Assembly: GCA_016936505.1 (NCBI GenBank)
Contig: JAFGXS010000024.1
Coordinates: 1 to 64,000 of the forward strand
Direction: 5' to 3'
Length of the DNA stretch: 64,000 bases
Source of the DNA: Bacteroidales bacterium
Lineage (GTDB): Bacteria > Bacteroidota > Bacteroidia > Bacteroidales > F082
In this document: positions 50,499 to 64,000 of the stretch, one piece after another
Position numbering within the stretch: the stretch's first letter is position 1
Layout: the number at the start of each line of letters is the position of its first letter
Made by a program: the position numbers and the translations under genes
The notes under the pieces: generated by a model
What the model was told of the DNA's origin: nothing
The model's database searches: none
Seen by the model: only the letters and a program-made list of their open reading frames with translations

Positions 50499-50504
50499 TT
50501 GCAT

Positions 50505-52043
50505 ATGGAAATTTTAAACGCGGCACTTGTTGACTGGTCCCGGGCGCAATTTGCACTAACTGCAATGTTTCACTGGTTATTTGTCCCTCTAACGCTGGGA
50601 ACCAGTTTTATCATTGCAATTATGGAGACCATCTACGTTAAAACAGGAAAAGAAATCTGGAAAAGAATCACAAAGTTCTGGATGACTCTTTTTGCCATTA
50701 ACTTTGCCATTGGCGTAGCCACAGGAATTATCCTCGAATTTGAGTTTGGAACCAACTGGTCCAACTACTCATGGTTTGTTGGTGACATTTTCGGTGCTCC
50801 CCTTGCAGTTGAAGGCATTATGGCCTTTTTCATGGAGTCTACTTTTTTTGCAGTAATGTTTTTTGGCTGGAATAAAGTAAGCAAAAAATTCCACCTTATT
50901 TCAACCTGGATGGTTGCAATCGGTTCAAACCTTTCGGCTCTGTGGATATTGGTTGCCAATGCATGGATGCAGAACCCGGTAGGAATGAAGTTCAATCCGG
51001 TAACTGCCAGAAACGAAATGGTTGACTTTTGGGAAGTTTTATTCTCTCCCACAGCCATCAATAAATTCTTGCATACCGTAACATCATCTTATGTTTTATC
51101 AGCAGTATTTGTTTTAGGAGTAAGCGCATGGTTCTTATTGAAGAAAAGAAACATTGCTCTGGCTAAAAGAAGTATTGTCGTATCGTCAACCTTTGGTTTA
51201 ATAATGATTATTGTTACCATATTTAATGGCGACGAATCTGCAAGAGAGGTATACCGTACACAACCCATGAAATTTGCCTCGCTCGAGGGTTTATATTATG
51301 GTGCTCAGGCAGCTCCTCTAGTTACTTTCGGTATTTTTGATATTCACAAACCAACTATGGAAAATCAAAATCCCAAAGTATTTACCAATAAATTTGAGGT
51401 TCCTAAGCTACTCTCTTTAATGGCTACCCTCAAGCCGAATTCATACATTCCCGGAATCAATGATTTCATCAAAGGAAATGAACAATACGGCATAGTTTCC
51501 TATTTCGACCGCATTAAAATGGGCAAAGAAGCTATTGGAGCTCTTAAAGTATACCAGAAAGAAAGAGGCAAAAACGATAGTATTGCTAATGCAGCTCTGA
51601 CCACTTTTAAAGAAAATTACAAATACTTTGGTTATGGGTATTATAATGATCCATACGATCTTATTCCAAATGTTCCCTTAGTATTTTATTCATTCCATGT
51701 TATGGTCGGTTTGGGCTTCTGGTTCCTGATTCTTTTCATTCTTGGATTAGTTTTTGTTTTGAAAGACAAAGTTCAGGATAAACGATGGTTCTTACTGACA
51801 GCATTATGGACAATCCCATTAGCATGGCTGGCTTCAGAGGCCGGATGGCTTGTTAATGAAATGGGAAGACAACCATGGGTTATTCAGGATTTGATGCCAA
51901 CAACAACTGCTATTTCAAACATCAACACGACATCAGTAATGATTACTTTCTTCCTGTTTGCAGTAACATTTACAGTTCTGTTTATTGCAGAGGTTCGTAT
52001 TATGTTGAAACAAATTAAACAACTTAAAGATGGAGGACACTAA
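50505..52043 (+). CDS. cydA: cytochrome bd ubiquinol oxidase subunit I
   Basis: SRAQFALTAMFHWLFVPLTLG; GDESAREVYRTQPMKFASLEGLY (Q-loop); AGWLVNEMGRQPWVIQ. Confidence 0.96.
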   Translation: MEILNAALVDWSRAQFALTAMFHWLFVPLTLGTSFIIAIMETIYVKTGKEIWKRITKFWMTLFAINFAIGVATGIILEFEFGTNWSNYSWFVGDIFGAPLAVEGIMAFFMESTFFAVMFFGWNKVSKKFHLISTWMVAIGSNLSALWILVANAWMQNPVGMKFNPVTARNEMVDFWEVLFSPTAINKFLHTVTSSYVLSAVFVLGVSAWFLLKKRNIALAKRSIVVSSTFGLIMIIVTIFNGDESAREVYRTQPMKFASLEGLYYGAQAAPLVTFGIFDIHKPTMENQNPKVFTNKFEVPKLLSLMATLKPNSYIPGINDFIKGNEQYGIVSYFDRIKMGKEAIGALKVYQKERGKNDSIANAALTTFKENYKYFGYGYYNDPYDLIPNVPLVFYSFHVMVGLGFWFLILFILGLVFVLKDKVQDKRWFLLTALWTIPLAWLASEAGWLVNEMGRQPWVIQDLMPTTTAISNINTTSVMITFFLFAVTFTVLFIAEVRIMLKQIKQLKDGGH

Positions 52044-52045
52044 TC

Positions 52046-53203
52046 ATGTTTGAAAACTTATCATATCTTACATTACAACATTATTGGTGGGCTATTGTTG
52101 CTCTGCTAGGTGGTATTCTTGTCTTCTTACTCTTTATTCAGGGTGGACAAACATTGTTATATAAACTTGGTAAAACTGATAACGAAGTAAAAATGCTCGT
52201 TAATGCGCTGGGAAGAAAGTGGGATTTGACTTTCACAACTCTTGTTACTTTTGGTGGTGCTGCTTTTGCATCATTCCCCCTCTTTTACTCTACCAGTTTT
52301 GGTGGCGCTTACTGGGTTTGGATTATCATTCTGTTTGCTTTTATCCTTCAGGCTGTATCTTATGAATATCGTTCAAAAGCTGGAAACTTTTTAGGCAAAA
52401 AAACCTACGATGTTTTTCTTTTTATCAATGGCTTAATTGGAACCGTATTTTTGGGAACCGCTGTTGCAACTTTCTTTACAGGATCATTTTTCCATGTAAA
52501 TGAGATGCATAGCTCGTTTTGGGATACCGATTTTGGAGGACTACTTTTGGCTCTTGATTTTGGCAGATATGCTACTTACATCAACCTATCGTTAGGGTTA
52601 GCAGTATTTTTCCTTGCCAGAGTTTTAGCCAGCATGTATTTCATCAACAGCATTGATGATAAAGTAATTAATGAAAGAAGCAAGAAAGCTATTTTTGGTA
52701 ATGCCATTCCCTTCTTATTCTTCTTCCTTTTCTTCTTAATCAATGTATTGGTTATGAAAGGATTTAATTATGATCCGCAAACCGGAGTTGTTAACATGGA
52801 AGCTTATAAATACCTCCATAACTTACTGGCAATGCCTGTAGTATTGATTATTCTTTTATTGGGTGTCGTAGCAGTACTTTGGGGAATAATCAGAGGTTAT
52901 TTCTTCTATGAAAAATGCGGTTCAAAAGCCATCTGGTTCTCGGGCATTGGCACAGTTTTGACCGTTTTTGCGCTATTTCTTACAGTCGGTTACAACCATA
53001 CACCATTTTATCCTTCAGTTACTGATCTGCAAAGTTCATTAACCATTGAAAACGCTTCATCCAGTATGTACACTTTAACAGCAATGTCATACGTTTCATT
53101 ACTAGTTCCTTTTGTTTTGGCTTATATCTGGTATGCATGGTCATCCATGAACAAACAGGATATAACAGCCAAAGAAATGGAAGAAGATACACATGCGTAT
53201 TAA
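52046..53203 (+). CDS. cydB: cytochrome bd ubiquinol oxidase subunit II
   Basis: 385 aa multi-TM directly after cydA; LVNALGRKWDLTFTTLVTFGGAAFASFPLFYSTSFGGAYWVWIIILF. Confidence 0.94.
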   Translation: MFENLSYLTLQHYWWAIVALLGGILVFLLFIQGGQTLLYKLGKTDNEVKMLVNALGRKWDLTFTTLVTFGGAAFASFPLFYSTSFGGAYWVWIIILFAFILQAVSYEYRSKAGNFLGKKTYDVFLFINGLIGTVFLGTAVATFFTGSFFHVNEMHSSFWDTDFGGLLLALDFGRYATYINLSLGLAVFFLARVLASMYFINSIDDKVINERSKKAIFGNAIPFLFFFLFFLINVLVMKGFNYDPQTGVVNMEAYKYLHNLLAMPVVLIILLLGVVAVLWGIIRGYFFYEKCGSKAIWFSGIGTVLTVFALFLTVGYNHTPFYPSVTDLQSSLTIENASSSMYTLTAMSYVSLLVPFVLAYIWYAWSSMNKQDITAKEMEEDTHAY

Positions 53204-53425: not shown

Positions 53426-54499
53426 TTAATTCCTCTTTGTAAAATGTCTCGAATTACCCTGTTCGTTATAAGCAACCTTTCCTCCTGCTCTTTGTACGAT
53501 ATTTTCAATGGACAGTTTACTATCACTAGCTTCTTCATTAATTCCGGGTTTGTTTTCGTACAAAGAATAAAGTTCCCTGTAAATTCCCGGTGTAATGTTT
53601 GGCATCAATACATTAGCACCGGCATGCAGCGCCATTTCACGTCCACCATTCACCAAAGATTGCATGGCCGTTGTGGAAGCTATATTGATGTCTTTCATCA
53701 TTATTCTTAAGATAGCAATCATCTTTAAGGTCCAGTCCAGACGCTGTTTTTTGGATGGGAGGCTTTCATGATATTGATAAAACAGAGTATCGACATGTTC
53801 AATATAAGGCCCCATGCCACACATATCAATATCCAAATCACGCATAAAAAGTAAATCATCAGCAAGGTTTTCCAAAGTTTGAAAGGGAGCACCAATCATG
53901 ACACCTGTGCCCGTTTGATAGCCACATTGTTTTAAATCATGAAGTGCTTGTAACCTTTTTTCATAACTATGCTTTGAATTGTTGGGATGTAGCTTTTGGT
54001 ACAGATTTTTGCCCGATGCTTCAATCCTGAGCAAATAGCGGATGGCACCGGCATCTTTCCATTGCTGATATACTTCTTTGGTTTGTTCTCCGCACGATAA
54101 GGTAACCCCTAGTGTTCCTTCACCGATATGCTCAATTCTTTGTAAAACATGGGAAATACCTTCTGTAAATTCTTCACTTTGCAGCTCACCACTTTGAATC
54201 ACAATAGAACCTAAATTATTTGCAACAGCAAAGCGAATAGCCCGATCGACTTCTTCGTCACTCAGCATAAAACGCTTCACATTTTTATTGGCTGCCCGAA
54301 TGCCACAGTAATAGCAATTTTTATTACATCTATTGGAAAGCTCTATTAGTCCGCGCAAATGAACTTTATTCCCAATATATTTTGCTTTTATTTGAGCCGC
54401 TTTGTTCAGAATCAAATCCGTTTGTTTACTATTTAATAATTCTACAAGTGACTCTTTATCTAAACGTTCTTCTTTCAATATTAATGCTACAGAAGACAT
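53426..54499 (-). CDS. hydE: [FeFe] hydrogenase H-cluster radical SAM maturase HydE
   Basis: IELSNRCNKNCYYCGIRAANKNVKRFMLSDEEV radical SAM motif; next to hydF and hydG. Confidence 0.95.
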   Translation of the reverse strand: MSSVALILKEERLDKESLVELLNSKQTDLILNKAAQIKAKYIGNKVHLRGLIELSNRCNKNCYYCGIRAANKNVKRFMLSDEEVDRAIRFAVANNLGSIVIQSGELQSEEFTEGISHVLQRIEHIGEGTLGVTLSCGEQTKEVYQQWKDAGAIRYLLRIEASGKNLYQKLHPNNSKHSYEKRLQALHDLKQCGYQTGTGVMIGAPFQTLENLADDLLFMRDLDIDMCGMGPYIEHVDTLFYQYHESLPSKKQRLDWTLKMIAILRIMMKDINIASTTAMQSLVNGGREMALHAGANVLMPNITPGIYRELYSLYENKPGINEEASDSKLSIENIVQRAGGKVAYNEQGNSRHFTKRN

Positions 54500-54500
54500 A

Positions 54501-55715
54501 CTATTTTACGCTGTTTAAATTGATAAATGGGCGAATCGCTCTTTCAAAAATGCCATTCATGTAAGCAATAGCCATACCATAATTTGAAACAGGAACGCCA
54601 GAATCTATTGCTGGTTTCAAACGGTTTTTTAACTGTTTTTGCGTAACAACACAACCTCCACATTGAATAACCATGGCATAATCGGTTACTGGCCTTTTCA
54701 GCTGATCTAAACCTGCTACAACATCAAACTCAATTTCTTTTCCTGAAAAGGATTGAATCCAACTTGGTAGCTTGTATCTTCCAATATCCTCACAACTTAC
54801 ATGATGAGTACAGGATTCAAGTAACAATACCCGATCACCATTTTGAAGTTCGGAAAGTTTAGGTGTTCCTTCAATATATTTATCGAAATTGGCACGCATT
54901 CGTGCAAATACGATACTAAATCCTGTCAAGGGAATTTCATTAGGAATTAATTTGGAAACAAGACCAAAAGCCTGACTGTCAGTTACAGCCAGGGCCGGCT
55001 TCAAGCCCAGCCCCATAAAATCCTTAAGTTCTGTTTCTCTAACAGTGACACAAACACAATGATGATCCAGGACATCGCGCCAAGCCATCACCTGAGGTAA
55101 AATCATCCGGCCTTCAGGGGCTTCAGAATCAATGGGCGTAATGAGCAATACTAAATCTTTAGGTTTTAATAAACCATCGAATAAAGCGGGTTTCATGTAA
55201 ACCGATTGAGGAATGGCCTTTTTAATTTTTTCAGTTACAAATTCAAGGCTTCCCGGTTCCAAAACGCTAATATCAAAAGTTTCTACCAGAGTTTCCCGGG
55301 CAATAACTTTTCGGGTTTCGTCCAACAGAGATTGCTGGTCTGCCTTGTTGTGAAAAATAACATACGGTACCTCAAGTCTATTGAATTCCGTTATAAGTTT
55401 TTGCTCAAAAGAACCAAAATTATTTTCCGAAAGGAGCAAAACAGCTAAATCGATATGATTGAGAACATCCATTGTTTTTTGGACTCGCTTGCTTCCCAAC
55501 TCTCCAACATCATCAACTCCAGCTGTATCTACGATAATTGCAGGACCAACGCCAAAAATTTCTACTGATTTCTTTACCGGATCGGTGGTGGTTCCGGCAA
55601 CTTCCGAAACAATAGCCACATCCTGACCTGTTATTCTGTTGATAAAGGAACTTTTCCCGTTGTTTCGACGTCCGAAAATACCAATATGGGGTTTTAAATC
55701 TTTTCCTTTTTGCAT
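54501..55715 (-). CDS. hydF: [FeFe] hydrogenase H-cluster maturation GTPase HydF
   Basis: HIGIFGRRNNGKSSFINRITGQDVAIVSEVAGTTTDPV; CTHHVSCEDIGRYKLPSWI; QCGGCVVTQKQL. Confidence 0.96.
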   Translation of the reverse strand: MQKGKDLKPHIGIFGRRNNGKSSFINRITGQDVAIVSEVAGTTTDPVKKSVEIFGVGPAIIVDTAGVDDVGELGSKRVQKTMDVLNHIDLAVLLLSENNFGSFEQKLITEFNRLEVPYVIFHNKADQQSLLDETRKVIARETLVETFDISVLEPGSLEFVTEKIKKAIPQSVYMKPALFDGLLKPKDLVLLITPIDSEAPEGRMILPQVMAWRDVLDHHCVCVTVRETELKDFMGLGLKPALAVTDSQAFGLVSKLIPNEIPLTGFSIVFARMRANFDKYIEGTPKLSELQNGDRVLLLESCTHHVSCEDIGRYKLPSWIQSFSGKEIEFDVVAGLDQLKRPVTDYAMVIQCGGCVVTQKQLKNRLKPAIDSGVPVSNYGMAIAYMNGIFERAIRPFINLNSVK

Positions 55716-55750: not shown

Positions 55751-57178
55751 TCAAAAATACAAATCGCGCTCACCCTGTTTTATTCTTTCCACCCGCATCC
55801 GAACTGAGGATTCCAGTTTAGTTTCGTGAAGACTTTCTATATTTTTTTCTATGAGTTTCCAACCTTTGGCAGCTGTTTCCTCTCCGGCATAATCAATAAT
55901 ATACTCGGCAAGAGTAAGAATTGCATTAGGGGTACAAAAGCGTTTGATGAAACCGGGCACTGAAAACTCCATGAAATGCTCACCCGTCCTGCCTTTACGG
56001 TAGCATGCCGTACAAAATGAGGGCAAATAATCGTGCTCTAAAAGTTCATCTATAACTTCACCCAGCGATCGATCATCATTGATTAGGAATTGTTCTTTTT
56101 TTAAATCCTGATGGTTGTTTTCAACTTCAGAATACGCTCCCATTTCAATTTTTGTCCCAGCATCAATTTGCGAGCAACCATATTGCAAAACTTCCTGGCG
56201 GATGTGTGCCTTCTCACGAGCTGTTAAAATCATACCTGTATATGGAACTGCAAGCCGAAGAATAGCAACGATACGGGTAAAGTCATCATCACTGACCAGA
56301 TAATCGGGGTTCAGTTTAAATTCTGAAGCGTCCTGCAAGCGTGGAAATGATATGGTATGAGGGCCGACGTTATAACAGGCTTCAAGATGATTGGTATGCC
56401 TAACCAAACCCATTACTTCAAACCGCCAGTCGTACAAGCCAAAAAGAGCTCCAATGCCTACATCGTCTAAACCAGCTTCCTGTGCACGGTCGAGCGACAC
56501 TAATCGGTTATCGAAATTCATCTTTCGTCCCCCTTTATGGTAAATTTTGTAAGCCTCTGGATGATAGGTCTCCTGAAAAACCTGATATGTTCCGATGCCA
56601 GCTTCTTTCACGGTTCTAAAACCATCAATAGTCAAAGGAGCTGCATTTATGTTTACCCTTCTGATCTCTCCGTTCCCGGTTTTTACATCATAAACGGTTT
56701 TCACCGTTTCTGCAATATATTCAGGTGTATATTTAGGATGTTCACCATAAACCAAAATCAATCGTTTTTGACCATTCTGTTCCAGAGCTTTCACATTGCT
56801 AATAAGTTCCTTTTTTGAAAGTGTTTTTCTTATGGCTTCTTTGTTTGAGCTTTTAAAACCACAATACTCACAGTTATTGATGCAATAGTTTCCCACATAG
56901 AGAGGTGCAAATAAAACAATACGTTTACCATAAACCTTTTCTTTCAGCTTGCGGGCAGCGGCTTTAATTATTTCAATTTGTTCGGGGGTATTGGCTTGAA
57001 TAAGGTTCGCTACTTCCTCTAGATTTAATCGTTTTTTATTCAACGATTTGGCTATAATTTCATTGACCCTTTCATTGGTAGACTTGGCATTATTTAAGTA
57101 AGACCAAATTTCATCAGAATCAATAAATGGAACTTCACGTTGGTCCGGTATGCTGTATGTTTCAGGATTAAATTTCAT
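55751..57178 (-). CDS. hydG: [FeFe] hydrogenase H-cluster radical SAM maturase HydG
   Basis: NYCINNCEYCGFKSSN radical SAM CX3CX2C; C-terminal PSFCTACYRKGRTGEHFM. Confidence 0.96.
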   Translation of the reverse strand: MKFNPETYSIPDQREVPFIDSDEIWSYLNNAKSTNERVNEIIAKSLNKKRLNLEEVANLIQANTPEQIEIIKAAARKLKEKVYGKRIVLFAPLYVGNYCINNCEYCGFKSSNKEAIRKTLSKKELISNVKALEQNGQKRLILVYGEHPKYTPEYIAETVKTVYDVKTGNGEIRRVNINAAPLTIDGFRTVKEAGIGTYQVFQETYHPEAYKIYHKGGRKMNFDNRLVSLDRAQEAGLDDVGIGALFGLYDWRFEVMGLVRHTNHLEACYNVGPHTISFPRLQDASEFKLNPDYLVSDDDFTRIVAILRLAVPYTGMILTAREKAHIRQEVLQYGCSQIDAGTKIEMGAYSEVENNHQDLKKEQFLINDDRSLGEVIDELLEHDYLPSFCTACYRKGRTGEHFMEFSVPGFIKRFCTPNAILTLAEYIIDYAGEETAAKGWKLIEKNIESLHETKLESSVRMRVERIKQGERDLYF

Positions 57179-57189
57179 GGCCTGATGAT

Positions 57190-58311
57190 TTAAATTATAG
57201 GTAATGTTATTTTAAATGTGGTTCCCAATCTTGGCTGACTGCTTACGTCGATTGTTCCACGATACAAATCCACCATTTTCTTAACAATGGAAAGTCCCAG
57301 CCCGGAACCATTTATATTTTGTGTTTCGTTTGTTTTGATGCGAGAAAACTCAGCAAACAATTTCGGCAAATCTTCCTGATCAATACCAATGCCTGTATCA
57401 GAAACTCTAATCATCAGGTTGTTACCTTTTTGCTTCACTTCAAATTGAACCTCCCCGTTTTTTCGGTTATATTTTACTGCATTGGAAAGTAAATTATTAA
57501 ATATTATTTCCATTTCATCAGGATCTGCTGTTAACTGAACCTCATCTTCCAGGTTGGTAATGATTTCGATATTGCTTTGTATGGCCAACGGCATAACTGT
57601 ATCCACCGCCATTCTTGCTAAATAATTAAGGTTCACATTTTGAAGTTTTCTTGACTTTTTTCCGGATTCGAGTCTTGTTAAATCGAGCATATCCATAATC
57701 AGTCCACGCATGGCCTTGATACGAACCAGCGAACGATCAATCATGCTCATGTATTCGGTAATATTTTCACCTGCTTGCTTTTCTTTCATAATTTCAAGAT
57801 AACCTTCCACAGCATTCAATGGCGATTTTAGTTCGTGTGATAGAACCGACAAAAAACGAAACCGAATCTGCCGTCCTTCTTCCTTCATCTTGCGAGTCAT
57901 TCGCATGAGAAACAAGTGCTTACTAATGTTCTCAATTGCGGACTTAACTTCGTCAGGAGTAAAAGGTTTTGGAATGAAATTATAGGCACCGAGGGTTGTT
58001 GCCTTAACTGCAATTTCCAGCGAAGCATAAGATGTTATCATCATTACAGCAATATCAAGCGACATTTTGTTAATTTTCTCGAGCACTTCAATGCCTTGTA
58101 TCCCTGGAAGTTTATTGTCCAATAAAATAATATCAATTTCATGGTGTGTAATCATATTAAGTGCCGATTCTCCGGTTTCAGCATCCATCACTTCAAAAGA
58201 AAAATCTTCATCCATAAATGGAAAACCCACTGTATAATTTTTCAGAACACGTTGAACACCTGACCTTATTCCAGGCTCATCATCCACTACTAAAACCTTT
58301 AACTTTTCCAT
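57190..58311 (-). CDS. receiver-histidine kinase hybrid (REC-HisKA-HATPase)
   Basis: REC VLVVDDEPGIRSGVQRVL...IILLDNKLPGIQG...FIPKPFTPDEV; HisKA FLSVLSHELKSPLNAVEGYL; HATPase NLLSNAVKYNRKNG...GSGLGLSIVKKMV. Confidence 0.93.
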   Translation of the reverse strand: MEKLKVLVVDDEPGIRSGVQRVLKNYTVGFPFMDEDFSFEVMDAETGESALNMITHHEIDIILLDNKLPGIQGIEVLEKINKMSLDIAVMMITSYASLEIAVKATTLGAYNFIPKPFTPDEVKSAIENISKHLFLMRMTRKMKEEGRQIRFRFLSVLSHELKSPLNAVEGYLEIMKEKQAGENITEYMSMIDRSLVRIKAMRGLIMDMLDLTRLESGKKSRKLQNVNLNYLARMAVDTVMPLAIQSNIEIITNLEDEVQLTADPDEMEIIFNNLLSNAVKYNRKNGEVQFEVKQKGNNLMIRVSDTGIGIDQEDLPKLFAEFSRIKTNETQNINGSGLGLSIVKKMVDLYRGTIDVSSQPRLGTTFKITLPII

Positions 58312-58321
58312 AACAATGTGG

Positions 58322-58735
58322 TTATAATTTCAGGAGTCGCTTAATTTCTCTATGGAGCTGGTCGCTTCGAATTCCTTTTTCAATAAATAAATCCGCTTTG
58401 ATCCATTTTTTGTCTTCCTTTGTTTCTACTCTGAAGTTAATTCCTCTTTCGGCTGCTACTGCAGAAGCAATAATCACCGGAAGCCGGGGTTGTTGTTTCT
58501 TGATTTTGTAGGCCAGAACAAAGCCTGCATCCTGGGTTTCCATCATCAAATCAAGAATGGCCAAATCAGGCTTCTCTTCGAGTGCTTTCTCAGCTTCTTT
58601 CATATTCTCAGCAGTTATCACATCAAACCCGAAGTTTTCAATATGGTACTTCATTTGAAATAAATAATCTGGGTCATCATCGACAATCAATATCATTTTC
58701 TTTATTCTCGACATTGCTTCTGTTTTTGACATCAT
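58322..58735 (-). CDS. single-domain response regulator
   Basis: ILIVDDDPDYLFQMKYHIENFGFDV...LAILDLMMETQDAGFVLAYKIKK...PVIIASAV; no output domain. Confidence 0.9.
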   Translation of the reverse strand: MMSKTEAMSRIKKMILIVDDDPDYLFQMKYHIENFGFDVITAENMKEAEKALEEKPDLAILDLMMETQDAGFVLAYKIKKQQPRLPVIIASAVAAERGINFRVETKEDKKWIKADLFIEKGIRSDQLHREIKRLLKL

Positions 58736-60726
58736 CGAACTGTTTTTTTAGGTAATTGAATAATAAAACGGGTTCCTACAAACCCTTTTGTTCTGTCTGT
58801 GTTTGATTCTACATCTATTTTGCCTCTGTGCATTTTTACGATACCATAAACCAATGGAAGTCCCATACCAGTTCCTTTTCCAATAGGTTTTGTTGTATAA
58901 AAAGGCGTAAAAATTTTATCCATATTTTCTTTACTGATACCACATCCTTCATCGACTACAGTAATGGTGAAATCAGTCATTAAGTCATGAATTATCAGGC
59001 TTAACTTTCCCCCATCGGGCATGGCATCTATGGCATTTTTTTCAAGATTGGTAAGAACCTGTCCCATTTGGTCCTTATCAATTTCTACATTCAGCACTTC
59101 TTTATCGGAAAGCACTTCAAAGTTTACATTCTCCGGAACAATTACAGACTGAATACTGCGTTTGCAAAAAGCTACAATATTGGTTTCCTCAGGATTGATT
59201 TGATTTTTTCTGGCAAAATTCAACAATCCTCCCACGATATTTTTACATCTTTCTGCCTGTTCAGCAATAAGGTTTAGATCAGAATTAAGTGACTCATCAT
59301 GAGCCATTTCCTCTTTTAATATATTGCTATACATCAAAATAACACCCAGAGGATTATTTAATTCATGTGCAATTCCTGCAGATAATTGCCCCATAGTGGC
59401 CAGCTTTTCAGTTTGTTTCAGTGCCAGCCGGGCAGAGGCCAGTTTTTCACTGGAAATATTCAGGTTGATAATCGTCGTGTGCATTTGTTCAATTGTATAG
59501 GGAAGACACATCTCTGTTTCGGCATATCCATTCACAATTGCGATGGCATGTTCACGACAAGTATCATAGCCACAAGCACGGCAATTAAGCTGGTCTTTAA
59601 GCTCTTTTTTACCCATCCCTAGCAAAACACAGCTAATTTCTTCTTCACCGGGTTTTGATAAATCAAGTTCATTGGGTCTAAAACTGCGGGTTAAATCTAG
59701 ATCTGAGAATTCTTTTATGTTTTGATCCCATTGGGAGATTTCGAGCCTGATTAGTTTCTTTTCTGTGTATTCTGTTACTTTTTTCGCTCTTGAAAAACGA
59801 CTGCCGTTTTTTGACATCCCAGGCCCCATGATACAACCTTCACAACACAATAACTCAAGATCTTGTCCTTTCAGATTTCCTTTTTCAAACTCAGTAATCG
59901 CATCTATAAAATCCCTATGACCGTTGGCTACCAACACTTTACTATCAGTAATATCAACCTTATGCTCAATGTTACTAAGTAGGCCATGACTGATAGGGAA
60001 AATCGATCCTTTACCTGCAAACGGGGCATCAAAATCATCAGAATTTATTGATTCAGCTGTAATCTTCTCAATCTCAAAAAGAGAACGTAATTCACTAAAA
60101 GTAATGACGAATTCTAGTTCGCTAGCTTCACCCTTTTTGGCAATACAAGGGCCAATGAACACAATTTTATTTTTGTTTCCATATTTCTTTTTTATAACCC
60201 TTCCCATAGCCACCATAGGTGAAACAACCGGAGTTAAACAGGAAGTGAGATGCGCATGATGTTTTTCAATGCATGCTACTACTGCAGGACAATCAGAGGA
60301 GATATACGTTTTGCCATCCGGCTTATTTTTTAATTTTTTGTATTCACGAGCAACCAGATCAGCACCAAAAGCTACTTCAAATACTTTACTAAAACCAAGT
60401 GATTTGAGCATTCCGACAAAAGTTTGGTAATCGTCCAATTCCGTAAACTCGGCTGGAAAGCTAGGGGCGACAGCGGCAAATACCACCCCATCACCGGCAA
60501 GTAGTTTTCTGATTTCATTAATCTGATTATTAAACGTTTTAGCTCCCTGACTGCACACACGCACACAGTTTCCACAGGCAATACAACGTTCTGGCATTAC
60601 TTCTGCCTGTCCATTGATGATTTTAATGGCTTTAACAGGACATTCTCTCACACAGGTATAGCAAACACGGCAGCGATTTTTTACCGTGTAAACTAAGATT
60701 TCCTTATTTCCTGTTGTCGTCATCAT
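58732..60726 (-). CDS. putative H2-sensory [FeFe]-hydrogenase-like protein fused to a histidine kinase
   Basis: 2x[4Fe-4S] (CRVCYTCVRECP, CIACGNCVRVC); H-cluster-domain motifs SSDCPAVV, GPCIAKKGEASELE, LCCEGCIMGPG; Fe-S motif CRACGYDTCREHAIAIVNGYAETEMC; HisKA LSAGIAHELNNPLGVIL; HATPase NLEKNAIDAMPDGG...GTGMGLPLVYGIV. Confidence 0.9.
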   Translation of the reverse strand: MMTTTGNKEILVYTVKNRCRVCYTCVRECPVKAIKIINGQAEVMPERCIACGNCVRVCSQGAKTFNNQINEIRKLLAGDGVVFAAVAPSFPAEFTELDDYQTFVGMLKSLGFSKVFEVAFGADLVAREYKKLKNKPDGKTYISSDCPAVVACIEKHHAHLTSCLTPVVSPMVAMGRVIKKKYGNKNKIVFIGPCIAKKGEASELEFVITFSELRSLFEIEKITAESINSDDFDAPFAGKGSIFPISHGLLSNIEHKVDITDSKVLVANGHRDFIDAITEFEKGNLKGQDLELLCCEGCIMGPGMSKNGSRFSRAKKVTEYTEKKLIRLEISQWDQNIKEFSDLDLTRSFRPNELDLSKPGEEEISCVLLGMGKKELKDQLNCRACGYDTCREHAIAIVNGYAETEMCLPYTIEQMHTTIINLNISSEKLASARLALKQTEKLATMGQLSAGIAHELNNPLGVILMYSNILKEEMAHDESLNSDLNLIAEQAERCKNIVGGLLNFARKNQINPEETNIVAFCKRSIQSVIVPENVNFEVLSDKEVLNVEIDKDQMGQVLTNLEKNAIDAMPDGGKLSLIIHDLMTDFTITVVDEGCGISKENMDKIFTPFYTTKPIGKGTGMGLPLVYGIVKMHRGKIDVESNTDRTKGFVGTRFIIQLPKKTVR

Positions 60727-60788: not shown

Positions 60789-62513
60789 TCAAATCATTAC
60801 ATCTCTTTTCTGATAATGGGTATGCAATAACTCATGACTTTTATGTCCAAGAGGTTCGCCTAAGAAATTCTGATAGAGCTCAATAATTTCCGGGTTTTTA
60901 TGCGACACTTTCAAGGTTTCTTTTTTGTCAATGTCATACAAGGTTTTCATCCGTTGGGCCAACTGTTTGTCATCAGTTCCAATGTGCTGCCCTCCACCAC
61001 CAATACAACCACCGGGACAAGCCATTATTTCAATAAATTGAATATCCTTACGTCCTGCACGAATTTCATCAAGCAAGACTTTGGCATTAGCCATTCCGTT
61101 GACAACAGCCACACCAAGTTCCAAATCACTTATTTTAATTTGAGTTTCTTTTCTTTTTTCAAAACCTCTGACTTGGGGAATAGTAAAATTCACTAATTCT
61201 TTACCCGTCAGTTTAAAATGCGCTGTGCGAATAGCTGCTTCCATAACACCACCTGAGGCACCAAACATTTTTCCGGCACTGCTACGAAATCCTAATGGGG
61301 AATCCGTAACTTCCGGGTCGATATTAAACATATCCACACCATAGAGTTTCAAAAATTTGGTCAACTCACGGGTAGTTAAAACGGCATCAACATCTGAGAT
61401 TCCTTTGTGGACCATTTCTTCACGTTGGGCCTCAAATTTCTTGGCTGTACAAGGCATGATAGCAACCATGTAAATATCTTCCGGATTGATACCTTGCTTT
61501 TCAGCAAAATACGTTTTTACAACGGCCCCCATCATTTGCTGTGGCGATTTACATGTTGACAAATTGGGAATCAAATCAGAATAAAATTCTTCTGCATATT
61601 TTACCCAACCCGGGCAGCAACTGGTAATCATTGGCAAAGTTTCTTCATTGGTTATCCGACGAATGAGCTCAGCTGATTCTTCCATAATGGTAAGATCTGC
61701 AGCAAATGAGGAATCAAAAATAAAATCAAATCCTACTTTGCGAAGAGCTGCATTTAAGATCCCATTATTATCCATACCAGGTTCTAAACCAATCTCTTCA
61801 GACATGGAAACGCTTATGGATGGAGCGTACTGAACTACCACTGTTTTATTTTGATCGTTGATGGCGGATTGAATTTCAGCAAAATGATTTTTTTCAGTTA
61901 ACGCTCCTGTCGGACAAACCATAATGCATTGCCCACAATTAATGCAACTTGAAGTATTGAGCCCCTGATTGAAAGAGGTTCCTATAAACGCTTTATTACC
62001 ACGGTTAATAAAATCAATGCATGATACTCCCATAACTTCTTCACAAATGGTAACGCAACGGCCACAAAGAATACACTTTTCAGGATCTCTTACAATAGAA
62101 GCACTTGATAAATCCAATTTTTCTTTATTCTTTTTCCCGCGAATTCGTCTTTCTCTGACATGATGTTCTTCGCTTAAGTTTTGAAGTTCGCAATTCTTAT
62201 CACGAACACAGTAAAGACAATCATCAGGATGGTTCGAAAGCAACAGTTCGATGATAGTTTTTCGGGCTTCAACCACTCGCTGACTATGCGTTTTAATTTC
62301 CATACCCGGAGCAGCAGGAAAAGAACAGGAAGTAATCAGCTTCCCGCTCTTCATGTCTTCCACAATACACATTCGGCAAGCTCCGGTAGGCATAGATTCT
62401 TTGAGATGACAAAGTGTTGGTACTTTAATTCCATTTCGCTTCAATACATCCAGAATAGTTTCTCCCTGTTCTGCAGAGCATTCTTTGTTGTTTATGTTGA
62501 TGGTATAATTCAT
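60789..62513 (-). CDS. hydA: [FeFe] hydrogenase catalytic subunit (NADH-linked / bifurcating-type HydA)
   Basis: 574 aa; [2Fe-2S] GIKVPTLCHLKESMPTGACRMCIVED; two [4Fe-4S]; H-cluster motifs MITSCCPGWVKY, MPCTAKKFEA, MACPGGCIGGGGQ. Confidence 0.95.
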   Translation of the reverse strand: MNYTININNKECSAEQGETILDVLKRNGIKVPTLCHLKESMPTGACRMCIVEDMKSGKLITSCSFPAAPGMEIKTHSQRVVEARKTIIELLLSNHPDDCLYCVRDKNCELQNLSEEHHVRERRIRGKKNKEKLDLSSASIVRDPEKCILCGRCVTICEEVMGVSCIDFINRGNKAFIGTSFNQGLNTSSCINCGQCIMVCPTGALTEKNHFAEIQSAINDQNKTVVVQYAPSISVSMSEEIGLEPGMDNNGILNAALRKVGFDFIFDSSFAADLTIMEESAELIRRITNEETLPMITSCCPGWVKYAEEFYSDLIPNLSTCKSPQQMMGAVVKTYFAEKQGINPEDIYMVAIMPCTAKKFEAQREEMVHKGISDVDAVLTTRELTKFLKLYGVDMFNIDPEVTDSPLGFRSSAGKMFGASGGVMEAAIRTAHFKLTGKELVNFTIPQVRGFEKRKETQIKISDLELGVAVVNGMANAKVLLDEIRAGRKDIQFIEIMACPGGCIGGGGQHIGTDDKQLAQRMKTLYDIDKKETLKVSHKNPEIIELYQNFLGEPLGHKSHELLHTHYQKRDVMI

Positions 62514-62527
62514 TTCAAAATACTTTT

Positions 62528-64000
62528 TCAGGAAATAACTATTGCATCAAATTTGCAGACATCATAACAAGAACCACAACTGATACATTTTTCGTTGACT
62601 ATAAAATGAGGTGATTTTCGGCTTCCGATAATGGCATTTGTAGGGCATTTTTTTGAGCATACAGTACATCCTGTACATTTATCCACATTGATGGTAAAGG
62701 TCCGTAAATCGGTGCACACATTGGCGCGACATTTTCTTTCAAAAATATGTTCTTCATATTCTTCGCGGAACCATTTAATGGTACTTAACACCGGATTTGG
62801 GGCTGTTTGTCCCAAGCCACAAAGAGAGGTTTCTTTAATGATTTTTCCCAATTTTTCTAATTGAGTAACTCCTTTAATACGTTCAAGAGCCTCATTTTCA
62901 TCTTCATGAACCGGTTTCTTAGTAATATTTTCCAAAATTTCGAGCATACGTCGGGTTCCTTCCCTACAGGGAATACATTTGCCGCAACTTTCGCGTTGAA
63001 TAAAGTCCATAAAAAATTTGGCCACATCCACCATACAGGTATCTTCATCCATAACAACCAGTCCACCGGACCCCATCATGGCTCCAATACTCAGAAGCGA
63101 ATCATAATCAACCTGAATATCTAGATTTTGTTCTGTAATACAACCACCAGAAGGACCACCAATTTGAACTGACTTGAATTTTTTATTGTTGGGAATTCCA
63201 CCACCAATGCCAAAAATCACCTCTCTGATTGTGGTTCCCATTGGCACTTCTACCAAACCGGTCAAATTAACTTTTCCCGAAAGGGCAAAAACTTTTGTCC
63301 CCTTACTGTTTTCGGTTCCCATCAAATTGAAATCCGTGATGTGGTCGGGCATAATTGCTGGCAAACAAGACAGTGTTTCCACATTGTTGATGATTGTGGG
63401 TTTTCCAAACAACCCTTTAACAGCCGGGAACGGAGGACGTGGAATAGGCATACCCCGTTTGCCTTCAATACTTTTAATAAGAGCGGTTTCTTCACCACAA
63501 ACAAAAGCCCCTGCTCCCATTTTCACCTTAATTTCAAAATCAATACCACTATTGAAGATATCTTTTCCGAGCAAACCATAATCTTTTGCCTGCTGAAGCG
63601 CTATCTTCAATCGCTTGATAGCCAAAGGATATTCAGCACGAATGTAAACGTAAGATTTTGTAGCACCTATACCATAAGCAGCAATCATCATCCCTTCGAT
63701 TAGTCTGTGTGGATCACCTTCAATTACAGCTCGATCCATAAAAGCACCAGGATCACCTTCGTCAGCATTACAAATCAGATATTTTTGATCTGATTCAGTG
63801 TTATGAGCAAATTTCCATTTTGTACCTGTACGGAAACCTCCGCCACCACGACCACGCAGACCACTTTCCTCAACCAAATCACAAACCTCTTCCGAAGTAT
63901 GCGAACCAATAGTTTTCAGATAAGAAACATAACCGCCATGTGCTATATATTCATCAATACTTACCGGATTTAACACGCCACAATTTTTCAACACAATACG
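62528..64000 (-). CDS. hydB: NuoF-like hydrogenase subunit HydB (5' end beyond window edge)
   Basis: GLRGRGGGGFRTGTKWKFA; NADH/FMN-site motifs CNADEGDPGAFMDR, GAGAFVCGEETALIKSIEGKRGMP; ESCGKCIPCREGTRRML; C-terminal 2x[4Fe-4S]. Frame stays open to 64000 (RIVLKNCGV), so the GTG at 63994 is probably internal. Confidence 0.93.
   Translation of the reverse strand, partial: RIVLKNCGVLNPVSIDEYIAHGGYVSYLKTIGSHTSEEVCDLVEESGLRGRGGGGFRTGTKWKFAHNTESDQKYLICNADEGDPGAFMDRAVIEGDPHRLIEGMMIAAYGIGATKSYVYIRAEYPLAIKRLKIALQQAKDYGLLGKDIFNSGIDFEIKVKMGAGAFVCGEETALIKSIEGKRGMPIPRPPFPAVKGLFGKPTIINNVETLSCLPAIMPDHITDFNLMGTENSKGTKVFALSGKVNLTGLVEVPMGTTIREVIFGIGGGIPNNKKFKSVQIGGPSGGCITEQNLDIQVDYDSLLSIGAMMGSGGLVVMDEDTCMVDVAKFFMDFIQRESCGKCIPCREGTRRMLEILENITKKPVHEDENEALERIKGVTQLEKLGKIIKETSLCGLGQTAPNPVLSTIKWFREEYEEHIFERKCRANVCTDLRTFTINVDKCTGCTVCSKKCPTNAIIGSRKSPHFIVNEKCISCGSCYDVCKFDAIVIS

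Follow-up and report, generated by a model that had tools for sequence, protein, structure and literature searches.

A hydrogenase-derived sensor histidine kinase encoded within the [FeFe] hydrogenase operon of a Bacteroidales bacterium

The stretch of DNA analysed here (the window; 64,000 nucleotides from a Bacteroidales bacterium) encodes on its minus strand an [FeFe] hydrogenase operon, within which lies hydS (58732..60726), the gene for a 664-residue hydrogenase-derived sensor histidine kinase identified by Pfam, homologues, phylogeny and a structural model. The original prediction, made from the sequence alone, had given the limits of this open reading frame exactly; a reading of 58732-60726 on the plus strand was ruled out, as that strand is not open and carries many stops throughout. 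The gene order on the shared strand is REC168, hydC, hydB, hydA, hydS, REC, REC-HK, hydG, hydF and hydE. Upstream of hydS are hydA (60789..62513), encoding the catalytic [FeFe] hydrogenase of NADH-linked type (NF040763 'group A6', 798 bits against a cut-off of 765), and hydB, a NuoF-like subunit by its profile matches (62528..64000, continuing past the window; full ORF of 644 aa at L003:2528-4462). Outside the window and on the same strand as the operon lie hydC, upstream of hydB (L003:4462-4923), and, directly upstream of hydC, a second stand-alone receiver, REC168 (L003:4944-5450), which has a long insertion ahead of the conserved Lys and keeps the phospho-Asp in the homologues of 34 loci. 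Downstream, and overlapping hydS by four bases, is a stand-alone receiver of 137 aa (REC; 58322..58735; Pfam Response_reg), followed by a REC-histidine kinase of 373 aa (REC-HK; 57190..58311; Response_reg, HisKA and HATPase_c) and the maturase genes hydG (55751..57178; TIGR03955, 504 bits), hydF (54501..55715; TIGR03918, 454 bits) and hydE (53426..54499; TIGR03956, 316 bits), all on the minus strand. A profile search of the genome found two PF02906 proteins, HydA and HydS. This operon context (hydCBA, REC, REC-HK and hydGFE), missing from the original prediction, is the best functional evidence available for HydS.

The protein begins with a 2x[4Fe-4S] ferredoxin-like domain (residues 12-62, 60541..60693; Pfam Fer4 family), whose cysteines are C19, C22, C25, C29 and C48, C51, C54, C58. 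The hydrogenase domain (H-domain; residues 82-302, 59821..60483; Fe_hyd_lg_C, E 2.6e-47) was recovered at the same coordinates by the genome search, and is followed by a C-terminal FeS domain (residues 379-409, 59500..59592; PF04060, E 8.2e-10) with the exact motif Cx2Cx4Cx16C (C382, C385, C390 and C407). The kinase comprises a HisKA/DHp domain (residues 445-508, 59203..59394; E 6.3e-14) with the phospho-acceptor H454, and a HATPase_c domain (residues 550-661, 58744..59079; E 2.3e-23); H454, N564, D592 and G618 cover the H, N, G1 and G2 boxes. All these segments are encoded on the minus strand. The domain order read from the sequence in the original prediction therefore matches Pfam, and the profile check that it proposed found all of Fe_hyd_lg_C, PF04060, HisKA and HATPase_c. 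In an AlphaFold2 model built from 59 aligned sequences (mean pLDDT 82; most sensor-half blocks score near 90), a single predicted signalling helix (residues 408-443, 59398..59505, minus strand) connects the last FeS cysteine with the DHp domain; pLDDT falls below 50 at 432-457, in and just before the presumptive dimer-forming part. Because this one helix joins the FeS domain to the kinase, the model leaves no room for a PAS domain; Pfam found none in HydS, in agreement with the original reading. In a Foldseek search, the sensor half matched the [FeFe] hydrogenases CbA5H, HydA1, TmHydA and CpI; ZraS was the match for the kinase half. No obvious hydrophobic segment is visible in HydS on inspection of the sequence.

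HydS is common and ordinary for its lineage. Of 198 genomes sampled from its order, 63 hold a full-length relative with at least 50% identity. Full-length copies with about 41-45% identity occur in 25 of 396 genomes from the phylum, and none of these 25 belongs to the class of the window. The best 80 of 281 relatives from a scan of public genomes are full length, 54-63% identical and nearly all labelled Bacteroidetes/Bacteroidales. The eight ferredoxin cysteines, the four cysteines of the C-terminal FeS motif and the four kinase-box residues are each present in 80/80; as these full-length relatives keep every cluster cysteine, a chance origin of HydS is excluded. Their loci contain hydA (78/80), hydB (74/80), hydC (71/80), REC-HK (72/80) and hydG (49/80), part of the missing genes being explained by contig ends, and most have the order hydS-REC-REC-HK. 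The phospho-acceptor Asp and acidic pocket of the stand-alone REC are invariant in 71/71 loci and the phospho-Asp and His of REC-HK in 72/72, such that the acidic pockets, phospho-Asp, Lys and His of the two proteins are invariant across 71-72 loci. In one locus (L110:857-2830) HydS is broken into two ORFs, probably through a frameshift or an assembly error.

Three motifs form the metal site of the H-domain, and their residues were mapped to CpI numbering by way of the motifs of the window's HydA. L1, SSDCPAVV (residues 143-150, 60277..60300), holds the ligand position C146, with D145 at the CpI C299 position. L2, FIGPCIAKKGE (residues 190-200, 60127..60159), holds the ligand position C194, with G192, K197 and E200 at M353, K358 and E361. 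L3, ELLCCEGCIMGPGM (residues 291-304, 59815..59856; all three on the minus strand), contains C295 and C298, which align with CpI C499 and C503 but stand one residue closer together, and an extra cysteine, C294. The four ligand cysteines (C146, C194, C295 and C298, equivalent to CpI C300, C355, C499 and C503) are present in all of the best 80 relatives, as are K197 and E200, and the same six positions are kept in 24/24 distant kinase-linked sequences. The proton-transfer position C299 is Asp in 80/80 relatives, M353 is replaced by Gly (80/80), M497 by Leu and Q325 by Met. Position 299 in sensory enzymes is mostly Ala, Cys, Pro or Ser, and Asp is the sole substitution said to keep activity in prototypical enzymes (PMC10055695). 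A natural Asp at this position also occurs in a catalytic-type HydA elsewhere (L082:1162 onward; SSDCPAW).

These features place HydS within a recognised class. A sensory set of 35 sequences that includes Ruminococcus albus HydS separates from groups A and B with 100/98 support, in a tree without group D sequences that does not cover the split between C and D. The non-Cys residue at 299 and small residue at 353 that mark group C (PMC10055695) are D145 and G192 in HydS, the Cx2Cx4Cx16C motif follows the H-domain, and the kinase linkage of C1, listed in HydDB as 'Histidine kinase-linked (putative)' (PMC5037454), is given by HisKA and HATPase_c as parts of one polypeptide. The PAS domain of the M2f layout was found by neither Pfam nor the model; since HydDB defines C1 by the kinase link, its absence excludes a layout like that of Thermotoga maritima HydS (TmHydS), not C1. 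Its sequence features make HydS a sensory hydrogenase of group C (HydDB C1-type), the class named originally, and no feature sets it apart from that class. Its closest described counterpart in setting is ING2E5A_0849 of Petrimonas mucosa, a C1 protein near hndABCD (PMC7768429); by description, both are kinase-linked H-domains of anaerobic Bacteroidales near an NADH-linked hydrogenase operon. With TmHydS (group C/M2f) HydS shares the two N-terminal [4Fe-4S] clusters, H-domain, C-terminal Cx2Cx4Cx16C, replaced C299 and Gly at M353 (PMC10055695, PMC8163306), whereas in TmHydS a PAS domain follows the FeS domain, which here leads straight into HisKA, and the C299 and M497 positions are Ala and Ser rather than Asp and Leu. 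Thermoanaerobacter mathranii HydS (TamHydS; group D/M2e) likewise has the ferredoxin, H-domain and C-terminal FeS domains, no PAS and Leu at M497, but lacks a fused kinase and has Ser rather than Gly at M353 (PMC8163306). R. albus HydS (RUMAL_RS17375; phosphatase-linked, C3-like) has the same sensor architecture and lies with HydS in the split supported at 100/98; in contrast to HydS, it has no kinase at its end, is adjoined by a SpoIIE-family phosphatase and retains CxxxC in L3. The regulatory [NiFe] hydrogenase HoxBC-HoxJ, in which a catalytically slow hydrogenase feeds a histidine kinase, follows a similar logic with a different metal centre and fold, and its sensor (HoxBC) and kinase (HoxJ) are separate proteins. 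To our knowledge, no HydS of the kinase-linked clade has been purified, and our literature search found no paper testing a kinase-fused member. The class to which HydS belongs is thus known but little tested. Regulatory evidence for R. albus HydS and HfsB is cited in passages of PMC8924675 and PMC11837493, and the former, a 2022 review, terms the sensory role of the class putative and direct physiological evidence wanting, which bears out the original remark that evidence for H2-gated kinase activity is thin.

L3 departs from a canonical H-cluster site. The CxxxC spacing (e.g. CPGGC) of the aligned cysteines is absent, with CxxC found in 80/80 relatives and 24/24 distant sequences, and also in phosphatase-linked paralogues wherever the cysteines are retained; CxxxC is kept in the HydS of R. 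albus, A. noterae and M. pectinilyticus and in groups A and B. When HydS was aligned by HMMER profile with solved structures, the one-residue gap fell at the same place, and the clade with the deletion has 97/92 support, consistent with a single event. The extra cysteine C294, invariant in the window's order, could restore CxxxC spacing in the window's clade only and is a possible cluster ligand. As the canonical L3 ligand it was rejected: the spacing fits, but the distant kinase-linked clade has Phe at this position and keeps the CxxC pair only, so that C295 is the homologous cysteine. The H-cluster that the original prediction took as given is therefore unsupported as an assumption; a complete H-cluster in HydS is likely rather than proven, because of the deviating spacing. 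C1 proteins of Hydrogenedentota, in which recognisable P1-P3 motifs were hardly found (PMC11406978), may present a related deviation, the two being set beside each other by description.

We propose that HydS is probably, though by no means certainly, a soluble sensor kinase responding to H2 (or to the H2/H+ and ferredoxin redox poise) by way of an H-cluster housed in an altered hydrogenase domain, and that it regulates the NADH-linked hydrogenase of its own operon. The HydEFG maturases of the operon would insert the [2Fe] subcluster into HydS, and binding or oxidation of H2 would shift the H-cluster to another redox or protonation state, upon which the H-domain would change shape. The C-terminal FeS domain, serving as a structural hinge and not as an electron relay, would pass this change on to helix 408-443 and the dimeric DHp domain, and autophosphorylation of H454 would be altered, whichever the direction of the response. 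Phosphate could then flow to the stand-alone REC and to REC-HK. Points against this proposal are CxxC in place of CxxxC in L3, the lack of a DNA-binding domain in the neighbouring receivers, the unresponsiveness of the TamHydS C-terminal cluster to H2 (PMC13104023) and the report on P1-P3 motifs in C1 proteins of Hydrogenedentota (PMC11406978).

The L3 deletion, common to the whole clade, also speaks for an alternative in which the domain would bind [4Fe-4S] clusters only, with L3 rearranged and no [2Fe] site, and the kinase would follow ferredoxin or cellular redox poise instead of H2. A paralogue bears on this alternative from both sides. Of the 80 loci, 32 have a second HydS that lies divergently upstream, is about 37% identical and lacks the kinase, and a SpoIIE-type phosphatase adjoins it in 31 of those 32 (an example is L013:3294-5156, with 31 similar loci). 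In this paralogue K358 is gone from nearly all copies and C499 from 17/32, the latter often replaced by Asp or Asn. That paralogues with decayed [2Fe] residues are still kept beside the operon indicates that this fold can remain useful when the H-cluster is no longer intact. However, the kinase-linked form in the same loci kept all of these residues, which argues that its metal site matters, and their retention looks selected. The invariance of the four ligand cysteines and of the K358 and E361 equivalents, in 80/80 kinase-linked and 24/24 distant sequences, speaks against a redox sensor devoid of the [2Fe] site, as does hydGFE in the same operon, although HydA alone would explain those maturases. 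We regard such a sensor as rather unlikely. In the window's genome itself, the search found no phosphatase-linked second HydS, no SpoIIE domain and only the two PF02906 proteins.

The original prediction had the redox state of the H-cluster transmitted through the C-terminal Fe-S motif, that is, by electron transfer to its [4Fe-4S] cluster, whose redox change would drive the helix. The geometry is suggestive, as the FeS domain stands directly ahead of the signalling helix in the model, C407 adjoins the first residue of that helix, and the four FeS cysteines are invariant. In TamHydS, the sole homologue tested, the equivalent cluster was not reduced under 1 atm H2, which according to its authors appears to refute its reduction as central to signalling, and loss of this cluster barely affects turnover (PMC13104023). 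TamHydS belongs to another group (D), so this contradiction is not decisive for HydS, but it makes an electron relay distinctly improbable, and the conformational route with the FeS domain as hinge is the one that we favour. That HydS is mainly a metabolic hydrogenase with an attached kinase, adding to H2 turnover, is very improbable: the ligands are conserved and Asp at 299 could transfer protons (PMC10055695), but Gly and Leu replace M353 and M497 as in low-activity sensory enzymes, and a dedicated catalytic HydA is encoded in the same operon.

For an H2-sensing HydS, the output could be a phosphorelay to an unlinked regulator or an action on another protein. Candidates nearby were rejected. 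The operon holds no DNA-binding partner, neither REC nor REC-HK having a DNA-binding domain. A NarL/LuxR-type regulator upstream of the operon (L003:5628-6278) was not assigned to HydS, because its own Cache-PAS-HisKA_3 kinase adjoins it (L003:6341-8431) and it was found in only 18/80 loci; this pair is a possible second control of the hyd operon. Rex lies downstream in 31/80 loci, but the two Rex genes of the window's genome lie elsewhere, which argues against Rex as a general output.

The sensor half of this kinase appears to have been exchanged during evolution. Kinases 51-57% identical to that of HydS carry a Cache_3-Cache_2 membrane sensor in place of the hydrogenase part (L120:4410-6224, L123:4103-5899 and L118:5278-7068), and such a kinase was found at E <= 1e-100 in 7 of 198 genomes. 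In L120 and L123 it takes the place of HydS, in the order hydB-hydA-[Cache-HK]-REC-REC-HK-Rex. Since the same operon in these two sampled genomes has the same kinase with a Cache sensor, the hydrogenase half is an input module that can be exchanged. In L118 a REC-Cache-HK-REC-HK cassette and a hoxEF-U-Y-H-like [NiFe] hydrogenase operon are divergently oriented, the putative HoxH being assigned by reading of the sequence rather than by Pfam. The kinase tree joins Cache kinases and HydS kinases of the window's order at 100/100 and leaves more distant HydS kinases outside; these are represented by 3 of 24, and the identity values of the full 24 (39-48%) fit this placement. The HydS clades of the window's order and of the distant sequences, by contrast, group together in the sensor tree. 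The simplest account of the two trees would be domain exchange between Cache and hydrogenase sensor halves. More tentatively, a possible picture is that of an H-cluster site re-shaped and tuned for sensing (L3 CxxC, a second invariant cysteine and Asp at the proton-transfer position), placed on a hydrogenase-associated kinase/REC/REC-HK cassette whose input has been swapped between hydrogenase and membrane Cache domains.

Sensory [FeFe] hydrogenases have been assigned mostly by gene neighbourhood and domain content. HydS offers a short path from sensor to output, since it lacks a PAS domain, its kinase belongs to the same chain, and the operon also encodes the maturases and two candidate REC partners. 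It thus lends itself well to the question of whether a histidine kinase can be gated by H2. Concrete mutants are suggested by the L3 deletion and by the decayed phosphatase-linked paralogues. Elsewhere in the window, two genes that resemble cytochrome bd oxidase subunits on reading of their sequence (50499-53203) are convergent with the oxygen-sensitive hyd operon.
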